DNA of 64,000 nucleotides from Richelia sp. SL_2_1 (GTDB lineage Bacteria > Cyanobacteriota > Cyanobacteriia > Cyanobacteriales > Nostocaceae): contig JAAUSO010000006.1 in assembly GCA_012033205.1 (NCBI GenBank), forward strand, positions 1 to 64,000, written 5' to 3'. Shown here one piece after another: positions 4,799-14,280 of the stretch (position 1 is the stretch's first letter; every line of letters starts with the position of its first letter). Made by a program: the position numbers and the translations under genes. The notes under the pieces are model-generated. The model worked only from the letters and a program-made list of their open reading frames with translations. It was not told the origin of the DNA and did not search any database.

Positions 4799-5848
4799 AT
4801 GAGCAATTCATTTAGAGATTTACTTAAAAAAATAGGTAGTGGGGAACATACAAAAGAAGATTTAACTCGTGGTGAAGCAAAATTAGCGACTAAAATGATG
4901 CTTTTGGGTGAAGCAACACCAGCACAAATTGGCGCTTTTTTAATTGCACACCGCATCAAACGACCTACTAGTGAAGAATTAGCGGGAATGTTGGATGCTT
5001 ACAGCGAACTTGGACCAAAATTACCAGCAATCAACCATCAGCAACCAGCTATAGTTTTTGGTATACCTTACGATGGTAGAACCCGCACTGCAGCAATTAG
5101 TCCGATCACAGCTTTATTATTAGCTTGTTCTGGACAAAATGTGATCATGCACGGTGGCGATCGCTTTCCCACAAAATACGGACTTTCGTTAGTAGAAATT
5201 TGGCAAGGTTTAGGTGTTGACTGGACAAAGTTAGAATTGCCCAAAACTCACCAGGTTATGGAAAAAACCGGAATCGGTTTTGTTTATACACCACTGCATT
5301 TTCCCCTAACAACAAGTATTTGGGAATACCGTGACCAAATCGGCAAGCGTCCACCTTTTGCCAGTATGGAATTAATTTGGTGTCCTTATGCTGGTGATGC
5401 TCACATCGTTACCGGGTTTGTTCATCCACCGACAGAGGAAAGGTTTAAGGCAACTTTATGTGACATCGGAATTACTAAGTTTACAACGGTAAAGGGTTTA
5501 GAAGGTAGTTGTGATTTACCACGCGATCGTACCGCGATTATCGGTTTGGGAAATGGTACAAATCCTATAGAAAGATTACTTTTGGTTCCTAGGGAATACG
5601 GCTTTACTACTCAAAATGTACCTCTGGGTAGTACTGAAGAATTATTATCAGAAATGAAATCAGTCTTGCAAGGTAAACCATCAGCATTGATGGAAACAGC
5701 ATTATGGAATGGCGGGTTTTATTTATGGCTTTGCGGAATTTGTAGTGATATGTCTTCCGGTTTAGCAACAGCCAAAGAATTATTTTACTCTGGTGCGGTG
5801 TTAACAAAACTTCAAGAATTGCAACAAGCAATTAACTCAATATTATAA
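4799..5848 (+). CDS. Anthranilate phosphoribosyltransferase-like protein (TrpD2/YbiB type)
   Basis: A 349-residue protein of the nucleoside phosphorylase-like/anthranilate phosphoribosyltransferase superfamily. The helical N-terminal domain (about 1-75, with LTRGEAKLATKMMLLGEATPAQIGAFL broken by family-typical turns) precedes an alpha/beta domain. Here GIPYDGRTRTAAISP and the HGGDRFPTKYG loop replace the canonical PRPP motif of true TrpD. That departure places it in the TrpD2-like group, where the E. coli member binds nucleic acid rather than making tryptophan. I therefore do not call it trpD. The ATG is preceded directly by heptad repeats with no Shine-Dalgarno sequence. Confidence 0.83.
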   Translation: MSNSFRDLLKKIGSGEHTKEDLTRGEAKLATKMMLLGEATPAQIGAFLIAHRIKRPTSEELAGMLDAYSELGPKLPAINHQQPAIVFGIPYDGRTRTAAISPITALLLACSGQNVIMHGGDRFPTKYGLSLVEIWQGLGVDWTKLELPKTHQVMEKTGIGFVYTPLHFPLTTSIWEYRDQIGKRPPFASMELIWCPYAGDAHIVTGFVHPPTEERFKATLCDIGITKFTTVKGLEGSCDLPRDRTAIIGLGNGTNPIERLLLVPREYGFTTQNVPLGSTEELLSEMKSVLQGKPSALMETALWNGGFYLWLCGICSDMSSGLATAKELFYSGAVLTKLQELQQAINSIL

Positions 5849-5897
5849 ATTGGGTAATTGGTAATGGGTAATGGGTAATTGGTAATGGGTAATTGGC
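5849..5897. repeat. STRR tract, GGTAATT/GGTAATG heptads
   Basis: About six tandem 7-bp units of GGTAATT or GGTAATG begin right after the stop codon of the TrpD-like gene. Confidence 0.85.
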
Positions 5898-6040: not shown

Positions 6041-6107
6041 ATTCTCCCAATTCCCCATTCCCAATTCCCAATTCCCAATTCCCAATTCCCAATTCCCCAT
6101 TTTCAAT
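6041..6107. repeat. STRR tract, CCCAATT heptads
   Basis: About eight units of CCCAATT, with CCCCATT variants at the ends. A short plus-strand frame through it is a repeat artefact. Downstream, 6108-6418 is AT-rich and contains no recognisable gene before the FHA start. Confidence 0.85.
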
Positions 6108-6418
6108 TCAGAAGTCAAGACTCTAAATATACAATTAAATCAAACTACATCAAAAACGCTTTTGCCAGAACCTTGGCAATGCGTAAAATTTACAATTCAA
6201 TAAAACCAAAACACTGATCATTAGCGTAGACTAAGGATTACGGTAGTACTAAGAAGGGATTTTTAATGATAAATAAATTTTCACTTCTGAGCAAAGGTTG
6301 AACTATAGTGTATTAAACGGCATGGAAAGTTAAAAATACAATAAAAATACAATTGTGTGGTTAAGTCTTACTGCCTACCAAGACCAATTTATTATAGTTG
6401 AGAAATAATACTGACTCG

Positions 6419-7776
6419 ATGACAGGCAAAAACGCAAGACAGAATGCATTTCTGCGGCTAGTGTCTGGTAAGGAATTAGAAACAGTTGAGCAACGCTACT
6501 CGCTAATTCCAACTTCAGAGGCAGTAATTGGACGCGATCCTCACTGTCAAGTTGTATTAGATGCATTACAGTATCGCATGGTATCTCGCCGTCATGCGGT
6601 GATTCGCCCTTTAAGTTTATCCCCCGATGGTGAAATCAGTTGGATACTCTGCGACTTAAATAGTGCTAACGGTACCTATCTAAATGGAAAACGCTTGCAG
6701 GAATGCCAGCAAATTTTTCCTGGCGATCGCATTACTTTGGGGTACGATGGACCTGATTTGGTTTTGGTAGCGAAATCGTCGAACGAAAAACAACCATTTC
6801 TAATCATACATCTTTCCATTCCACTTCAAATTCCTCAAACTATTCCAAACCAGACTCAGTTAGCTTCACTCAATTATTTCCCATTATTTCTACAGGTAAA
6901 GATTTAACTCGCAAAGCTTATCTAATACCTGGAATTTTAACGGTGATATTTGTAGTACTAATGTTTGCCACCGTAGGAAAACCCGAAGCAAACCAAATTA
7001 TAGTTGCTGTTTATATTGCCTTTGCCGCTTATTATTTTATTTATCAGTTGTGTGGCAAGCATAAACCTTGGTGGGTTCTATTAGGGGTAGGTTTATCCAC
7101 AACTTTAATTTTACTTAGTCCCCTATTAGATTTATTTATTTTTATATTTCGCGAAATTTTACCCGGTAGTCTACCTTCTGGGCAAGAATCAATTACCTTT
7201 ACTGAATGGCTGGTGCGGATGTTTTTCGGTGCTGGTTTGATGGAAGAACTACTCAAAGCATTGCCAGTTGCCGGTATATATTTTATCGGTTTAGGATTGT
7301 CTTCCCCTTGGCGAGAACGTGTCGGACTTTGGGAACCTTTAGATGGAATATTGCTGGGAGCAGCTTCTGCTGTCGGTTTCACCCTACTGGAAACACTTGG
7401 TCAGTATGTGCCAGAAGTTACTCAGAATGCAGCAATTCAAGCAGGAGCAGAAACAGGTCAATTAGTCGGGTTACAACTGCTGATTCCGCGAATTCTCGGT
7501 TCTATCGCTGGACATATGGCTTATAGCGGATATCTCGGCTATTTCATCGGTTTAGCCGTACTTAAACCAAAATTAGCAGGACAAATTTTATTAGTTGGCT
7601 ATCTTAGTGCCTCAGCGCTTCACGCTTTATGGAATGCAACTGGTGCTATCAGTGGTGTATTTTTAGTAGTCGTAGGTGTATTATCTTATGCTTTTTTAAT
7701 GGCTGCAATCCTTAAAGCAAGAGCGCTTTCACCTAATCGCGAACAAAATTTCGCTACCCGCTTTTTCGGAAAATAA
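6419..7776 (+). pseudogene. FHA domain-PrsW intramembrane protease fusion, one-base frameshift
   Basis: The first frame (ATG 6419, MTGKNARQ) encodes a forkhead-associated domain that binds phosphothreonine: VIGRDPHC, SRRHAV, and NSANGTYLNG are visible. Around 6757-6767 the frame must shift by one missing base; the new frame then runs without stops through a serine-rich linker into KDLTRKAYLIPG and a multi-helix membrane domain ending at 7776. That domain carries the PrsW-type glutamate motif MEELLKALPV, plus GHMAYSGYLGYF and ALHALWNATG, whose histidines are conserved in this glutamic-type intramembrane protease family. The repaired product is about 450 residues. I infer a membrane protease whose activity or location depends on a phosphorylated partner. 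It faces, convergently, the CHAT-FHA/PP2C genes. The first frame alone ends at 6907. Confidence 0.8.
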
Positions 7777-7778
7777 CT

Positions 7779-7870
7779 AATTGGTAATTGGTAATTGGTA
7801 ATTGGTAATTGGTAATTTTACTCTTCCCTCTTCCCTCTTCCCTCTTCCCTCTTCCCTATTCCCTATTCAC
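7779..7870. repeat. STRR tracts, GGTAATT then CCCTCTT heptads
   Basis: About five GGTAATT units followed by five CCCTCTT/CCCTATT units, filling the start of the gap between two convergent genes. Confidence 0.88.
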
Positions 7871-8046
7871 TGATATATGTCTTTTGATAGATGAGGCTGG
7901 AGAACAAACTATCATATCTTTTAAATAATCATGGATAAATCTACCCTAAGAAATAAAAATTACAGAAATAGCATCGCTCCAGCCATCGCAAAAGTAAATT
8001 GATTGCATTGGCTTTGCAAATAAAGTAGAAAATGGCGGCAAAAGTT

Positions 8047-8703
8047 TTACTCTTCTGCTTGAAAGGTATTTAACTGATTTAATGCATGATAAGCAATCGT
8101 TAAACCAACTTTTGCTTGTTCAATTTCTGATAAAGCTGCCCATTCACGATTATCCTCTTGATTGTAATTAGCTAGAGTTGATTCTACTTTAGGATGGGAA
8201 CCACTTCTAGTTGCATAAGCTAAGGGACGTGCTAAAACCATGATGTCGTCAACTTCTAAACTCGGCAATACAGCTTGCACGCATTCAATCAGTTGTTCTG
8301 TGATTGACTGTTTTGCATTGAAAATTTCTGCTGCTTTCTGAGCAATCAAGTTGATCCAATCTTTTGGCATACTATTACAAAACTCTTTTTGTAAATTCTT
8401 TTGCAGCTTGAGTGCTATTGTTTGATTTGTATTACAATTGTAGTGTGCCGAACTCTCGACCTTAGACCAAAGCGCATCTAATTGGTTGTGAAAAGCTTCA
8501 CAGCGTGTATCTAGTTCCTCGTCTAGCAAAGCCTGCATCGGGAATTGCTCTTCTATTTGATTAAAATAAGCTTGGGTATCGTCTTCGTAAGAATTCCAAG
8601 GATAAGTATTATCTTCTGGTTCAAGTAAAGTTGTGAGTAAATCCCATTCGATTTGAGAAAGGGAATTGTGAGAATTTGTTGAACCTTGCATTTTGTCAGC
8701 CAT
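8047..8703 (-). CDS. Unrecognised acidic cytoplasmic protein
   Basis: I do not recognise the family. The product is about 218 residues, acidic, without signal peptide or membrane helix. It is rich in Gln, Glu and Leu, and probably mostly helical. The start at 8703 (MADKMQGS) is chosen because GGGAG lies about eight bases upstream; an upstream in-frame ATG at 8754 lacks such a site. It follows the CHAT-FHA gene on the same strand after a 171-bp gap, so it could be part of the same signalling unit or a separate transcript. It converges with the FHA-PrsW gene across a repeat-filled spacer. Confidence 0.7.
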   Translation of the reverse strand: MADKMQGSTNSHNSLSQIEWDLLTTLLEPEDNTYPWNSYEDDTQAYFNQIEEQFPMQALLDEELDTRCEAFHNQLDALWSKVESSAHYNCNTNQTIALKLQKNLQKEFCNSMPKDWINLIAQKAAEIFNAKQSITEQLIECVQAVLPSLEVDDIMVLARPLAYATRSGSHPKVESTLANYNQEDNREWAALSEIEQAKVGLTIAYHALNQLNTFQAEE

Positions 8704-8874
8704 GTGTTGTCTCCCGGTGAATGAATTAGCGGTATTGACAGCTACAGCACCCAATATCTGGTTTCCGCAAACTGAAATTTTCTTTTATCTACTGTTATAA
8801 CTTTTTGATTTGACGTAGCAACGTAGAGTCTATGTTAATAGTTAAAAGAGGAATAGTACCAATTTGATAAATAT

Positions 8875-10440
8875 CTAATTTTCAATCCGAAATTCCCAAG
8901 TTTGACTTTTAGTGCTACCAAACTTCAAATGCATTCCCGATTCTAAAGGTACTTCGCCTCTGTAGATTTGTTGCCAGCCACCGGAGCGTAAAATCCAAGT
9001 CGTACCATAAGTGGATAAATCTTGTAAATAGTAAGTTTGCACTTGAGTATTACCGACTAAACTATTACGACATAAAATTTCAGCGTGACGTTTGGAAACT
9101 GAAGGTTCTCGGATTACAATATCATTTTCTCTAGTGCGACCGATGCGAGTAACTCCGGGTTTTAATAACCAAATTTTACCTCCTGCTTGCAAAGAACGTA
9201 AGGAAACATTTGCACTACCAGGAATAAAAGTTGTGGGTATTTCTGTAGCACCTTCTTCAAAACTCTTGAGCAATTCACCGTCGAAGTGGGGATGTAAGTA
9301 AAGAACTGGTAAAGTCCAAGCGGGCTGGTTGAAATGATAAATTGTTAATAACCTTTTTCTACCTTCGGCAACAGCTTCGTCAATCGGTTTGCGACTACGT
9401 AAAGCTAAAGCAAAACTTTGAATAAAACTGTGACTTTCCTCATCTGTAATTTCATCACGCATTCCCAGTACCGCAGGTACACCTTGACGTATTAATACTT
9501 CTGCTAAACTACTGTGAGCAACAGCTCGGTTTTGATTAGAGAAAGGTTGCGCTCCCCAACAAGCATTGAAAACAGCCAACTTCACATCACTACGGGTTAA
9601 AGCTTGTGCCAGTTCCATACCATTAAGAGTCATCTCCTTTTGTAAAAATAGAAACCCCCCATCCGGACCTGGCAACCCGTGACCAGCGTAAAAAAACACA
9701 TTATAAGCTTTAGTATCTAATTCCGAAATTAGCTGTTCTGGAGTTGGTTTTACCAGGGTATTTACCATACAAGGCGCGTATCCGGCAGAAGTACTACCCA
9801 GGGAATGACTTCCAGAAAGAGTTTGTTGAAGAATAGCTGCTTCTGTTTCCAGTTGTAGGTTTTCATCTTCTCCTAAAACTAACAAAATATTTAAAGCATG
9901 ATCGGTTCCTGAACAAGACAGCGGTTCAACTTGAGAAGTAGTGCGACTAAACAACAGATGTTGAGACAGCGACATTGCTGGTTGCCCCGGTTCACGCTGC
10001 ATAATTTCCCAAGGAACAGCAATTAAATCTGGGTCGCGGATTTCCAAACGAAAGCGTAAACGTGTATGCTGACCCATAGCAATACCGCGACTGCGTTCCA
10101 AGCTGCCCAGAATTTCTCCCTCGAATGTCCAACGCCATAAACTAACTCCCATATATTGCATCAAACGGCTGCTATAGCTAGTTTTTTGACCGGAAGCTGA
10201 TGGTAGGGAGTTCAAGGGAAGCGGATTTGCAGTTTCCAACTTATTTTTTGGCGATATATCCAACCGGGAATGTCCAGCGAACATTTGTTGCCATTCCAGC
10301 CAAGCTTGATTTAGCTCTTGCGACCATACACAATCATGTAAAACATAACCACTCGGATAGGGAGCATTCACCACCCAAATTGCAAAATTGTCAGTGCCTG
10401 TATGAACTAGACGGGCGATCGCCAGGTTAAGGGATGGCAT
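8875..10440 (-). CDS. CHAT-domain protein with C-terminal FHA domain
   Basis: A 521-residue protein joining a caspase-like CHAT domain to a forkhead-associated domain. The CHAT part (about 140-400) shows FFYAGHG with the presumed catalytic His254 and FNACWGA with Cys294, plus VLGMRDEITDEES typical of the family. The FHA part (about 423-518) shows IGRTREND, SVSKRHAEI and LQDLSTYGT. CHAT proteins are clan-CD cysteine peptidases; FHA domains bind phosphothreonine. I infer a protease recruited to phosphorylated targets. The start at 10440 (MPSLNLAIARL) fits homologues better than the upstream ATG at 10476; neither has a clear Shine-Dalgarno site. The PP2C phosphatase gene lies 96 bp upstream on the same strand. 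Substrates are unknown. Confidence 0.87.
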   Translation of the reverse strand: MPSLNLAIARLVHTGTDNFAIWVVNAPYPSGYVLHDCVWSQELNQAWLEWQQMFAGHSRLDISPKNKLETANPLPLNSLPSASGQKTSYSSRLMQYMGVSLWRWTFEGEILGSLERSRGIAMGQHTRLRFRLEIRDPDLIAVPWEIMQREPGQPAMSLSQHLLFSRTTSQVEPLSCSGTDHALNILLVLGEDENLQLETEAAILQQTLSGSHSLGSTSAGYAPCMVNTLVKPTPEQLISELDTKAYNVFFYAGHGLPGPDGGFLFLQKEMTLNGMELAQALTRSDVKLAVFNACWGAQPFSNQNRAVAHSSLAEVLIRQGVPAVLGMRDEITDEESHSFIQSFALALRSRKPIDEAVAEGRKRLLTIYHFNQPAWTLPVLYLHPHFDGELLKSFEEGATEIPTTFIPGSANVSLRSLQAGGKIWLLKPGVTRIGRTRENDIVIREPSVSKRHAEILCRNSLVGNTQVQTYYLQDLSTYGTTWILRSGGWQQIYRGEVPLESGMHLKFGSTKSQTWEFRIEN

Positions 10441-10536
10441 GGATTCTTTAAAAAAGGCTAAATTTTTTTCAAGCAAAATGTTTGCCCAAAATTATCTTTT
10501 CAGGCGATTACCTGTATGATTTTAGTTTCTTATAGT

Positions 10537-12957
10537 TTATCGAGTTTTGGAACCAGTGCTGTTACCCGTTGGGGGTAATGTTGTTTTATCTCTGATATTA
10601 CCAGGACTGCTGGGGTTTTGCGAATCCTCAACAGGTGGTGAAGTTGAAGTATCTTCAATTTTGGGAGCTGAACTATCTGCCGTAGAACAGTCCTTAGGTG
10701 CAGTTGTTGGGTTGGAAATTGAGACGTTTGACGCAGTAAGCTGGGAACTTTTGAGCCATAATTGTTCGCCCGGTTTGGGTAAGGTTGTATTAGCAGCAGT
10801 AGTTACTGTTGGAGTAGGCAAAACTGTTACCTCCCCTTTTACATCTCCAACTGAGCATACCTTAATCTCTAGCCAATAGTCTTGTGATGATGGAATCTGC
10901 TCTTTTTGCACGACCTGTAATAAACTAGCTGGTGGTGCAGGAATTATTACTGGCTCTGAGGAAGCTGCATTCGCCTCGGCAGGCGGTGTCTTACTTTTAC
11001 TCAGATTAATTTCTTCTTTCGTATTGATTAACCAACCTTTGTCGATTTTGGCGAGTCTTGGGGAATTATCATCAATGGAAGTTTGGGGACTGTTGGGGGT
11101 TCTGGTATTTGTTGCTGCTACTGGTGTGGAGTCAACATTTCTGCTTAATGATGTTTGCCTCCAAAAGTATCCTAATGCACTACCCACTATCGTTAGTAAA
11201 GCAATTATTCCCAACATTAGGGGTAATTTAGAAACTTGAGGAACAACTTTTTTGGTAATTACTTGGGTTTTCTGGTTGGGAAGAGTTTGTGTTGCTGGAA
11301 CTAAATGGGAAGAATCAACTGCCGGAATTAACGAAACATCCGCAAGACTTGCTTCTAATGGTGACTTTGGCTCAGAATATTTAGTTTGGCAATGCATTAA
11401 GGCAATAGTCACATTATCATGACCATTTTGATTGTTAGCAATCTCTAACATTTGCTTAGTAACGCTAACTACATCACCCTTGTTGTTGAGTAATGGTAAA
11501 ATTTCCGTTTCCCAGTATTGTTCGATACGGTCAAAATCACTTAAACCGTCGGAACATAGTAAAAACACACAATCTTCATCGAGGATAAATCGCTGTGCTG
11601 TTGGATGTAAAGCACTACTTGCATTCATTCCCAATGCTTGGACTAATGAACCAGAAGCAGCTTGCTGTACAGCATCGCGATAAACTGCGTAGCCCAATCG
11701 TACTTCGCGGGAAGCCACATCATCGTCAAGAGTTATTTGATGGCAGTTATTGCGGGTAATTAAGTAAGCGCGACTGTCTCCGACATGAGTAATATACATG
11801 GAATGGGCAACTGGTAATCCGATGACTACAGTGGTTCCCATACGTTGTCGTCCTTGACGATTTTCGCTGTCGTTACGCTGGCTAATTTTATCGTTAGCAG
11901 CTGCTGCAGCCCGTTCTAAGTCGGTAAGTAGGGCAGCCGAGTTAACATGATCTCCTGGTAAATTTGCTAGTTGCCCTACCTGCTGTTGAATCGTCTCAAT
12001 CGCTAAATTAGACGCTACATTGCCTCCTTCATGTCCGCCGATACCATCACAAACAATAGTTAAAGCCGATTTTGATGGTGGTTTGGAGATAGCAGTACCA
12101 CTTTGGGGGTAACAAGCATCTTCATTGCGTTGGCGGCTAGACCCTTTATCAGTCACCGTAAACACTTTGATGGTAGAATCGTGGAATTGGCTTAACGAAG
12201 TTAATCCCCGATCTAAAACACCAACTAACTGTTCGCTCGAATGTATTTTCCCTTCAATTAACAAACCACAAACTTCGCCCAGAAAATTGCCAATCGCAGG
12301 TTGTGCTTGGGCAAGTAACTGTTGTTGCCAAAACTCTCCTAAAGCTGACAAGGCTGGTGTACTTTCCCCATCAGAACTTAATTCTAATAACCTGACTATT
12401 GAACCTTCTACCCGAATCAAATTTTTTGCCAGTAAGCTAGAACCAACACCAAAACTTACCAAAGGTTGCCATAATTGGGCTATTTGCCACAGCCAATTAA
12501 GTTGTCGTAGGGACGTTGCATTTTTCCAAGCATCTGTCAATTTGCCACACAATTTTACTTTGAGAGGCGATTCACTCAAAATAACCGGGGGTTTCTCTAA
12601 AAGTAATATTTCTCTAGGGGTGTTACCGACATTTAAAGTCAACAGTCCGTAAACTTGAGGAAGGTGTAAGCGATAGGGAATTAATCTCAGATAAGATTTA
12701 ATCTCATCCAACCTTTGTTGTTCAGGTATTTCTGGCAGAATCCCTGGTTTGGTATCTAATAAAACATTATCTTCAATAATTAAATAACGCTCTTGTAACA
12801 ATTCCCCAGAATTACCCAAAATCGAATTATCCGCCACAGCCCAGAGATAACGTTTGGGCAGAGGTGTGGAGCATTGCTGGCAAAACTTGTGGGTAAGGGG
12901 GTTAGCAGCTTGACAAAGTTCATTTGGACAGTAGAGCGTTGCCGCGTCATTTTCCAT
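10537..12957 (-). CDS. PP2C-family Ser/Thr phosphatase with zinc ribbon and membrane anchor
   Basis: An 806-residue protein. Residues 10-29 hold four cysteines (CPNEL-C, FCQQC) forming a likely zinc ribbon. Residues 40-260 are not recognised. The PPM/PP2C catalytic domain spans about 262-523, with RQRNED (275-280), CDGIGGHEGG, HVGDSRAYL, CSDGLSD and GHDNVT supplying the metal-binding aspartates. One transmembrane helix follows (about 578-598), then a Pro/Ser/Thr-rich tail of about 200 residues, possibly outside the membrane. It removes phosphate from phospho-Ser/Thr proteins. Directly downstream lies the CHAT-FHA gene, whose FHA domain would read the marks this enzyme erases. No Ser/Thr kinase is encoded in the window. 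Confidence 0.9.
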   Translation of the reverse strand: MENDAATLYCPNELCQAANPLTHKFCQQCSTPLPKRYLWAVADNSILGNSGELLQERYLIIEDNVLLDTKPGILPEIPEQQRLDEIKSYLRLIPYRLHLPQVYGLLTLNVGNTPREILLLEKPPVILSESPLKVKLCGKLTDAWKNATSLRQLNWLWQIAQLWQPLVSFGVGSSLLAKNLIRVEGSIVRLLELSSDGESTPALSALGEFWQQQLLAQAQPAIGNFLGEVCGLLIEGKIHSSEQLVGVLDRGLTSLSQFHDSTIKVFTVTDKGSSRQRNEDACYPQSGTAISKPPSKSALTIVCDGIGGHEGGNVASNLAIETIQQQVGQLANLPGDHVNSAALLTDLERAAAAANDKISQRNDSENRQGRQRMGTTVVIGLPVAHSMYITHVGDSRAYLITRNNCHQITLDDDVASREVRLGYAVYRDAVQQAASGSLVQALGMNASSALHPTAQRFILDEDCVFLLCSDGLSDFDRIEQYWETEILPLLNNKGDVVSVTKQMLEIANNQNGHDNVTIALMHCQTKYSEPKSPLEASLADVSLIPAVDSSHLVPATQTLPNQKTQVITKKVVPQVSKLPLMLGIIALLTIVGSALGYFWRQTSLSRNVDSTPVAATNTRTPNSPQTSIDDNSPRLAKIDKGWLINTKEEINLSKSKTPPAEANAASSEPVIIPAPPASLLQVVQKEQIPSSQDYWLEIKVCSVGDVKGEVTVLPTPTVTTAANTTLPKPGEQLWLKSSQLTASNVSISNPTTAPKDCSTADSSAPKIEDTSTSPPVEDSQNPSSPGNIRDKTTLPPTGNSTGSKTR

Positions 12958-14186: not shown

Positions 14187-14243
14187 CCACCGCATCCCTC
14201 TTCCCCCTTCCCTCTTCCCCCTTCCCTCTTTCCTCTTCCCTCT
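14187..14243. repeat. STRR tract, CCCTCTT/CCCCCTT heptads
   Basis: About seven CCCTCTTC-phase heptads of the same class as at 7779-7870. A minus-strand frame of 71 codons crosses it and is not supported as a gene. Confidence 0.85.
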
Positions 14244-14280
14244 TTTTAATCCAAATAGCAAATAAACGCCGATGATTGTT

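Follow-up and report, generated by a model that had tools for sequence, protein, structure and literature searches.

Do the four adjoining genes at positions 6419–12957 of a contig from the cyanobacterium Richelia sp. SL_2_1 act as one phosphorylation-controlled protease system, or is there a smaller functional unit among them? In this part of the window, as we call the whole stretch of 64,000 nucleotides that was analysed (GenBank assembly GCA_012033205.1, contig JAAUSO010000006.1, positions 1 to 64,000), a sequence-only reading had proposed such a joint system. All four genes were confirmed as real from their open reading frames (ORFs) and domains: a gene for a protein with FHA and PrsW domains (FHA-PrsW) lies on the + strand, followed on the − strand by genes for an acidic protein, a caspase-fold CHAT protease with a C-terminal FHA domain (CHAT-FHA) and a zinc-ribbon/PP2C/transmembrane (TM) protein. 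CHAT-FHA and the acidic protein stand out from this neighbourhood and are probably a protease and its target, paralogous to HetF and PatU3. HetF and PatU are known as a cutter and its target in the division and differentiation of cyanobacterial cells, with PatU3 as the inhibitor. The HetF/PatU3 pair ties cell division to heterocyst development and, to our knowledge, the control of HetF itself is an open question.

CHAT-FHA and the acidic gene form a near-obligate pair

We surveyed 292 genomes drawn from the cyanobacterial phylum, using tblastn for CHAT-FHA (E ≤ 1e-50) and PP2C (E ≤ 1e-40), and tblastn plus a profile for the acidic family. CHAT-FHA was present in 68 genomes, the acidic gene in 68 by tblastn and 70 by profile, PrsW in 64 and PP2C in 99. 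CHAT-FHA and the acidic gene occurred together in 67 genomes (66 by tblastn alone), CHAT-FHA alone in one, the acidic gene alone in three and neither in 221. All 32 genomes sampled from the same family, that of the window included, carried both genes. In four families (24 genomes) one gene or the other varies, and there the split in the same order was 11, 1, 2 and 10 (Fisher p = 3e-4, ignoring kinship inside families).

Among the 66 genomes found by tblastn, the two genes lay within 8 kb of each other in 50 and apart in 16, so linkage alone does not explain their co-occurrence; in the genome added by profile (G211) they are on different contigs. CHAT-FHA was found near the acidic gene in 12 families, which extends the conservation well beyond close relatives. 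The order PP2C > CHAT-FHA > acidic gene, with FHA-PrsW convergent, recurred in seven families (f1, f4, f10, f15, f16, f18 and f22), two of them outside the order.

Scanned with the CHAT-FHA alignment, GTDB genomes yielded 454 confirmed relatives, possibly with HetF or other CHAT proteins among them, and the best 80 of these are our named loci, nearly all from Nostocales genera with one from an ‘uncultured cyanobacterium’. The acidic gene was present at 79 of the 80 and PP2C at 78 (one as a 462-aa piece). The sole named locus without the acidic gene (L122) belongs to Plectonema cf. radiosum LEGE 06105 and carries that genome's second copy of CHAT-FHA. This copy (L122:115-5347) is 93% identical to the window protein and is fused behind a SAV_2336 N-terminal domain, with a VMAP-C protein and an AAA ATPase encoded in the same row; the locus looks like a ternary conflict-type system that recently captured the CHAT-FHA effector.

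We also ran a CHAT-FHA profile on ten genomes without the gene, including the three with the acidic gene alone; at E ≤ 1e-20 it returned only a HetF-like gene in G207, which has no FHA domain and was excluded from the CHAT-FHA count. In another of the three, G005, a 48-aa remnant resembling the end of the FHA domain (L086:3199-3339, E = 0.001) was observed at the expected place of CHAT-FHA, next to an intact acidic gene, PP2C and FHA-PrsW, an apparent loss of the protease with its partner kept.

CHAT-FHA and its relation to HetF

CHAT-FHA occupies positions 8875–10476 (− strand), with a CHAT domain at 9343–10035 (Pfam E = 2.9e-19) and an FHA domain at 8917–9150 (Pfam E = 1.1e-11). The catalytic-type residues His266 (9679–9681) and Cys306 (9559–9561) were invariant in 65 of 65 sequences. 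The top NCBIfam match was the HetF model, partial and at 136.5 bits (E = 1.1e-39) against a cut-off of 1200; given this score, and an FHA domain instead of TM and TPR regions, the protein is a paralogue of HetF and not HetF.

Within its own genome, the best paralogue of CHAT-FHA was HetF (E = 6.1e-33; next, 4.3e-10), and HetF scored 198–220 bits in the CHAT comparison against 33–62 for other CHAT proteins. We built a tree from 32 HetF rows (2 identical), 22 CHAT-FHA rows and 8 other CHAT rows, the last being 8 of the 10 further CHAT matches in this genome. HetF and CHAT-FHA each formed a single group (support 99/98 and 82/80) and joined at 88/90, apart from the 8 other CHAT proteins. By these sequence comparisons, CHAT-FHA is the closest CHAT paralogue of HetF among those tested.

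The sequence-only reading had two proteases joined to FHA domains, and for CHAT-FHA this holds. In FHA domains a conserved Arg and Ser serve in phosphothreonine binding, and the usual turn is NGT. The corresponding residues of CHAT-FHA are Arg447, present in 61 of 65 sequences, and Ser461, present in 64; the Asn of the turn is replaced. Thr411-x-x-Pro414, in the linker before the FHA domain, was invariant in all 65. It falls in a T-E-L/I-P stretch at 9235–9246 (− strand), and its conservation suggests Thr411 as a candidate phosphosite for an intramolecular FHA switch, by analogy with OdhI and GarA. Our searches of the open-licence literature for CHAT with FHA or PrsW and for cleavage of PatU3 by HetF yielded, in the portions of text accessible there, nothing on CHAT-FHA.

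The acidic protein as a distant PatU homologue

The acidic gene lies at 8047–8703 (− strand), and its product was called unknown in the sequence-only reading. The ORF has 235 aa (pI 4.55); ATG at 8703 is a more likely start than TTG at 8754. Searches of Pfam, NCBIfam and PADLOC found no match to the protein at E ≤ 0.1, and profile searches with its family against Pfam (34 rows) and the PDB gave just scattered single weak matches. Several comparisons indicate distant homology to PatU.

Run over the 292 genomes, a profile built from 34 divergent members found, outside its own family, only G140 and four weak matches (E = 2.5e-4 to 8.9e-3). G140 was excluded from the acidic count (71 to 70) because its matches (E = 0.006–0.008) contain stop codons. 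The four weak matches were PatU-like ORFs (frames of 333–407 aa), each beside a HetZ-like ORF. As stated in part of one published study, patU lies directly downstream of hetZ (PMC7377430). The PatU-like ORF of genome G078 overlaps HetZ (NCBIfam 656.5 bits, cut-off 550), and a HetZ-like ORF was present in the same small locus for 32 of 32 PatU rows (31 distinct loci, these four among them), one of them confirmed by NCBIfam. When the G078 PatU was searched in 80 genomes it matched in 43, and its second match in G197 was the acidic gene of that genome (E = 4.5e-4).

When HHalign compared the acidic family (64 rows) with PatU (31 rows), the probability was 85.4% and the score 47.4 across 101 columns, with E = 5.8e-6 for one comparison on its own. 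The highest control scores were 17.0 among 20 column shuffles and 21.1 among four real families, one of which was PP2C from a badly cut alignment. For the PatU alignment, locus L206 was dropped as the same locus as L223, and the fused L222 frame was trimmed of its HetZ half. Among the matches listed for a PatU hidden Markov model (HMM) on 3,526 ORFs (at least 24, E ≤ 0.0017), all were acidic-gene ORFs by their coordinates. The reverse search, with the acidic HMM on ORFs of the PatU loci, listed 18 matches, all PatU, and is the weaker test, its set being those loci only.

The families share conserved residues. The YPWN motif of the acidic protein (8593–8604, − strand) pairs with FPWE of PatU, and its Pro-Trp is kept in 97–100% of the merged alignment. 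One Arg is common to 64 of 64 acidic rows and 31 of 31 PatU rows, and HHalign pairs the same Arg; in the acidic protein it is Arg183 (counted from TTG 8754; 8206–8208, − strand). Separase, a related protease, prefers Arg. The shared invariant Arg is a candidate recognition or cleavage residue and could also be structural.

No Thr column reached 60% among the 64 acidic proteins, and Thr was absent from the invariant and 90% columns of the 34- and 56-row acidic alignments, which speaks against a conserved phosphothreonine of the acidic protein as what the FHA domain recognizes.

Comparing the distributions of the two pairs

We compared the distributions of the two pairs in 80 of the 292 genomes, chosen by hand (14 of the 32 of the same family and most listed members of the order and class), with cut-offs of E ≤ 1e-50 for HetF and E ≤ 1e-3 for PatU. 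HetF and PatU occurred together in 42 of the 80 and one without the other in 2, whereas CHAT-FHA and the acidic gene occurred together in 49, with one alone in 4. Eight genomes from three families had the CHAT-FHA/acidic pair with neither HetF nor PatU, and two from one family had HetF and PatU with neither CHAT-FHA nor the acidic gene. Correlations, which ignore kinship, were 0.95 for HetF with PatU, 0.89 for CHAT-FHA with the acidic gene, 0.68–0.69 between the pairs and 0.37–0.45 for PrsW. In these genomes the two pairs are related, yet separable.

A proposed protease and target, and the alternatives

The protease activity of HetF can cleave PatU3, according to a passage of one review (PMC12288457). 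Given this cleavage, the paralogy points to the acidic protein as what CHAT-FHA should act on. We consider it probable, from sequence relationships and by analogy, that the two form a protease/target pair paralogous to HetF/PatU3 and a second, phosphorylation-wired version of it; cleavage, the place of the cut and phospho-control are what we infer. The paralogy also supports the role in regulated proteolysis that the sequence-only reading had suggested. CHAT-FHA would cut or clear the acidic protein, perhaps at the invariant Arg, and the removal would relieve inhibition by this regulator, in the way that HetF acts on PatU3. Phosphorylation by a Ser/Thr kinase may fall on CHAT-FHA, for which Thr411 in the linker is the candidate, or a docking protein; binding of the phosphothreonine by the FHA domain would then gate or place the protease, and the neighbouring PP2C would reset the switch. 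FHA-PrsW would be a common neighbour and not an obligate part.

Several observations weigh against this proposal. The survey searches were asymmetric, the acidic profile having been run in all 292 genomes and CHAT-FHA sought by tblastn at 1e-50, with its profile in 10 only. CHAT-FHA stands alone in G237 and the acidic gene in G005, G123 and G207; these three, with the remnant in G005, indicate that the acidic protein can persist alone. The homology of the acidic protein to PatU covers about 100 residues at 19% identity, without the PatU C-terminal region after the Q....L..A helix, and the HHalign value of 85%, taken by itself, points to homology without settling it. AlphaFold gave a weak model of the acidic protein (pLDDT 66), for which a fold search against the PDB found nothing at E ≤ 0.001. 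The 88/90 branch joining HetF and CHAT-FHA is under the starred level of support, and the long branches of the other CHAT proteins weaken the rooting. The sequence-only reading had proposed looking for a Ser/Thr kinase companion; the 41 kinase matches in the genome all lie on contigs other than that of the window (C146).

A less probable explanation, though one to take seriously, would make the acidic protein an adaptor, activator or inhibitor that binds CHAT-FHA and presents or blocks the protease, with the real substrate elsewhere. Near-obligate co-occurrence and adjoining genes fit a complex as well as they fit a substrate, the weak AlphaFold model shows the acidic protein as helices throughout, and PatU3 itself works through binding to HetZ, as reported in a portion of PMC7377430. 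Against this, the cleavage of PatU3 by HetF (PMC12288457, in the same passage) favours a target by paralogy, and the Arg that never varies in either target family would suit a role in recognition or as the scissile residue, even if it may be structural.

It is improbable that the four genes form one phospho-controlled module in which CHAT-FHA and FHA-PrsW act jointly under PP2C. Both proteases carry FHA domains, and of the 52 genomes that have FHA-PrsW as well as CHAT-FHA, 36 place the two genes within 8 kb of each other. But 12 genomes had FHA-PrsW without CHAT-FHA and 16 of the 68 with CHAT-FHA lacked FHA-PrsW, and in the 80 chosen genomes FHA-PrsW correlated with the pair at 0.37–0.42 against 0.89 within it. 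PP2C is distributed more widely: it was found in 67 of the 68 CHAT-FHA genomes, and 32 of its 99 genomes had no CHAT-FHA (95 of the 99 were used for the neighbourhood comparison). FHA-PrsW is moreover convergent with the other three genes, and so not in one operon with them. With these distributions the four genes are not a single unit: CHAT-FHA and the acidic gene are the only near-obligate pair, FHA-PrsW is a looser neighbour and PP2C is wider.

A cell-death or anti-phage effector cassette, also raised by the sequence-only reading, is very unlikely: CHAT proteases do act as effectors in other systems and the near-copy in Plectonema cf. radiosum (L122) is fused to SAV_2336-N, but CHAT-FHA is in 32 of 32 genomes of the same family with its neighbours mostly kept, and the sole PADLOC match, PDC-M21C on the PP2C protein, reached 14 bits.

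If CHAT-FHA and the acidic protein are a protease and its target, the pair, with its built-in phosphothreonine-reading domain and neighbouring phosphatase, predicts a target, a control logic and a candidate scissile residue, and PatU belongs to a wider family. The eight chosen genomes with the pair and without HetF or PatU would also show a pairing independent of heterocysts. More tentatively, HetF/PatU3 could be a single branch within an ancient cyanobacterial family in which CHAT proteases are paired with PatU-type targets, and CHAT-FHA with the acidic protein a second, phospho-wired through FHA and PP2C and working without HetF and PatU, with cleavage at the shared Arg as the possible common step.

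The neighbouring FHA-PrsW and PP2C genes

FHA-PrsW (6419–7776, + strand; Pfam FHA E = 3.7e-18, PrsW E = 4.3e-35) is not a single frame in the window: the FHA frame stops at 6907 and PrsW is in a different frame, open from 6757. The window has TTTT at 6762–6765, where two relatives of about 97% DNA identity, the metagenome-assembled genome Rivularia sp. T60_A2020_040 (L121) and Plectonema cf. radiosum LEGE 06105 (L124), have TTTTT and an open frame of 459 aa, the joined protein that the sequence-only reading had described. The PrsW-matching frame was 423–533 aa in 63 other genomes against 339 in the window (G229, counted among these, carries a stop codon within the matched stretch), and FHA and PrsW were in a single ORF at 74 of the 80 named loci, with PrsW alone at 1 and neither at 5. 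As the nearest relatives carry the extra T and an open frame, the break is, on this comparison of sequences, a private deletion or a sequencing error. A programmed frameshift is unneeded, since the two nearest relatives have the extra T and the others a long open frame.

A similar lesion was observed elsewhere in this genome, where hetZ and patU (L222:328-2487, contig C125) form a single 720-aa frame; hetZ is short by one base beside an A run relative to two relatives and reads on in frame into patU. Together the FHA-PrsW and hetZ breaks suggest single-base deletions or assembly errors, and the missing hetZ base makes assembly error a fair suspicion for both.

The zinc-ribbon/PP2C/TM protein (10537–12957) is upstream of CHAT-FHA on the same strand. 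Of the architecture first proposed for it, a membrane-anchored phosphatase with a zinc ribbon, the PP2C domain is clear (residues 265–521, 11395–12165; Pfam E = 3.4e-11). The zinc ribbon is under the Pfam cut-off (E = 0.019), with its four Cys invariant in 52 of 52 Nostocales-type sequences, and the TM segment (residues 578–601, 11155–11226) was recognized by eye from the translation. Between the zinc ribbon and the PP2C domain is a conserved, unassigned region of about 230 aa (12166–12852). A pseudokinase reading of residues 36–264 was not supported by HHalign, which gave a probability of 2.6% against 19 kinase rows from the same genome. AlphaFold modelled the region poorly (pLDDT 49) and the top Foldseek matches were PknG and PAN3 at E > 0.2; the strand/helix order and these weak fold matches are a hint, not significant, of a degraded kinase fold.

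The spacers flanking the cluster hold heptanucleotide tandem repeats (5848–5896, 6045–6109, 7778–7868 and 14195–14244), with units AATTGGT, TCCCAAT, TAATTGG, CTCTTCC and TCCCTCT.

Comparison with known systems

OdhI and GarA are FHA switch proteins. CHAT-FHA resembles them in having a conserved Thr in the linker ahead of its FHA domain, and differs in that the OdhI model scores just 16.9 bits, at the level of FHA itself, in having Pro at Thr+3 and in that its phosphosite is a candidate. The PP2C region matches the cyanobacterial PP2C model PRK14559 (NF011149) at 239.1 bits, under the curated cut-off of 374.

With PatU and PatU3 the acidic protein shares the PW[N/E] motif, a Pro-started helical block, an LV..V..L.P core, the invariant Arg and the Q....L..A helix. 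Its gene differs from patU in adjoining CHAT-FHA and not hetZ, the genome's own PatU being at the hetZ locus on contig C125.

HetF has TM and TPR regions, as described in part of PMC8406250, and no FHA domain, whereas CHAT-FHA has the FHA domain and a PP2C neighbour. The two proteases are alike over about 300 residues of the CHAT region, with the His in SGH or AGH and the Cys in NSC or NAC contexts, and each is paired across genomes with a PatU-type protein.

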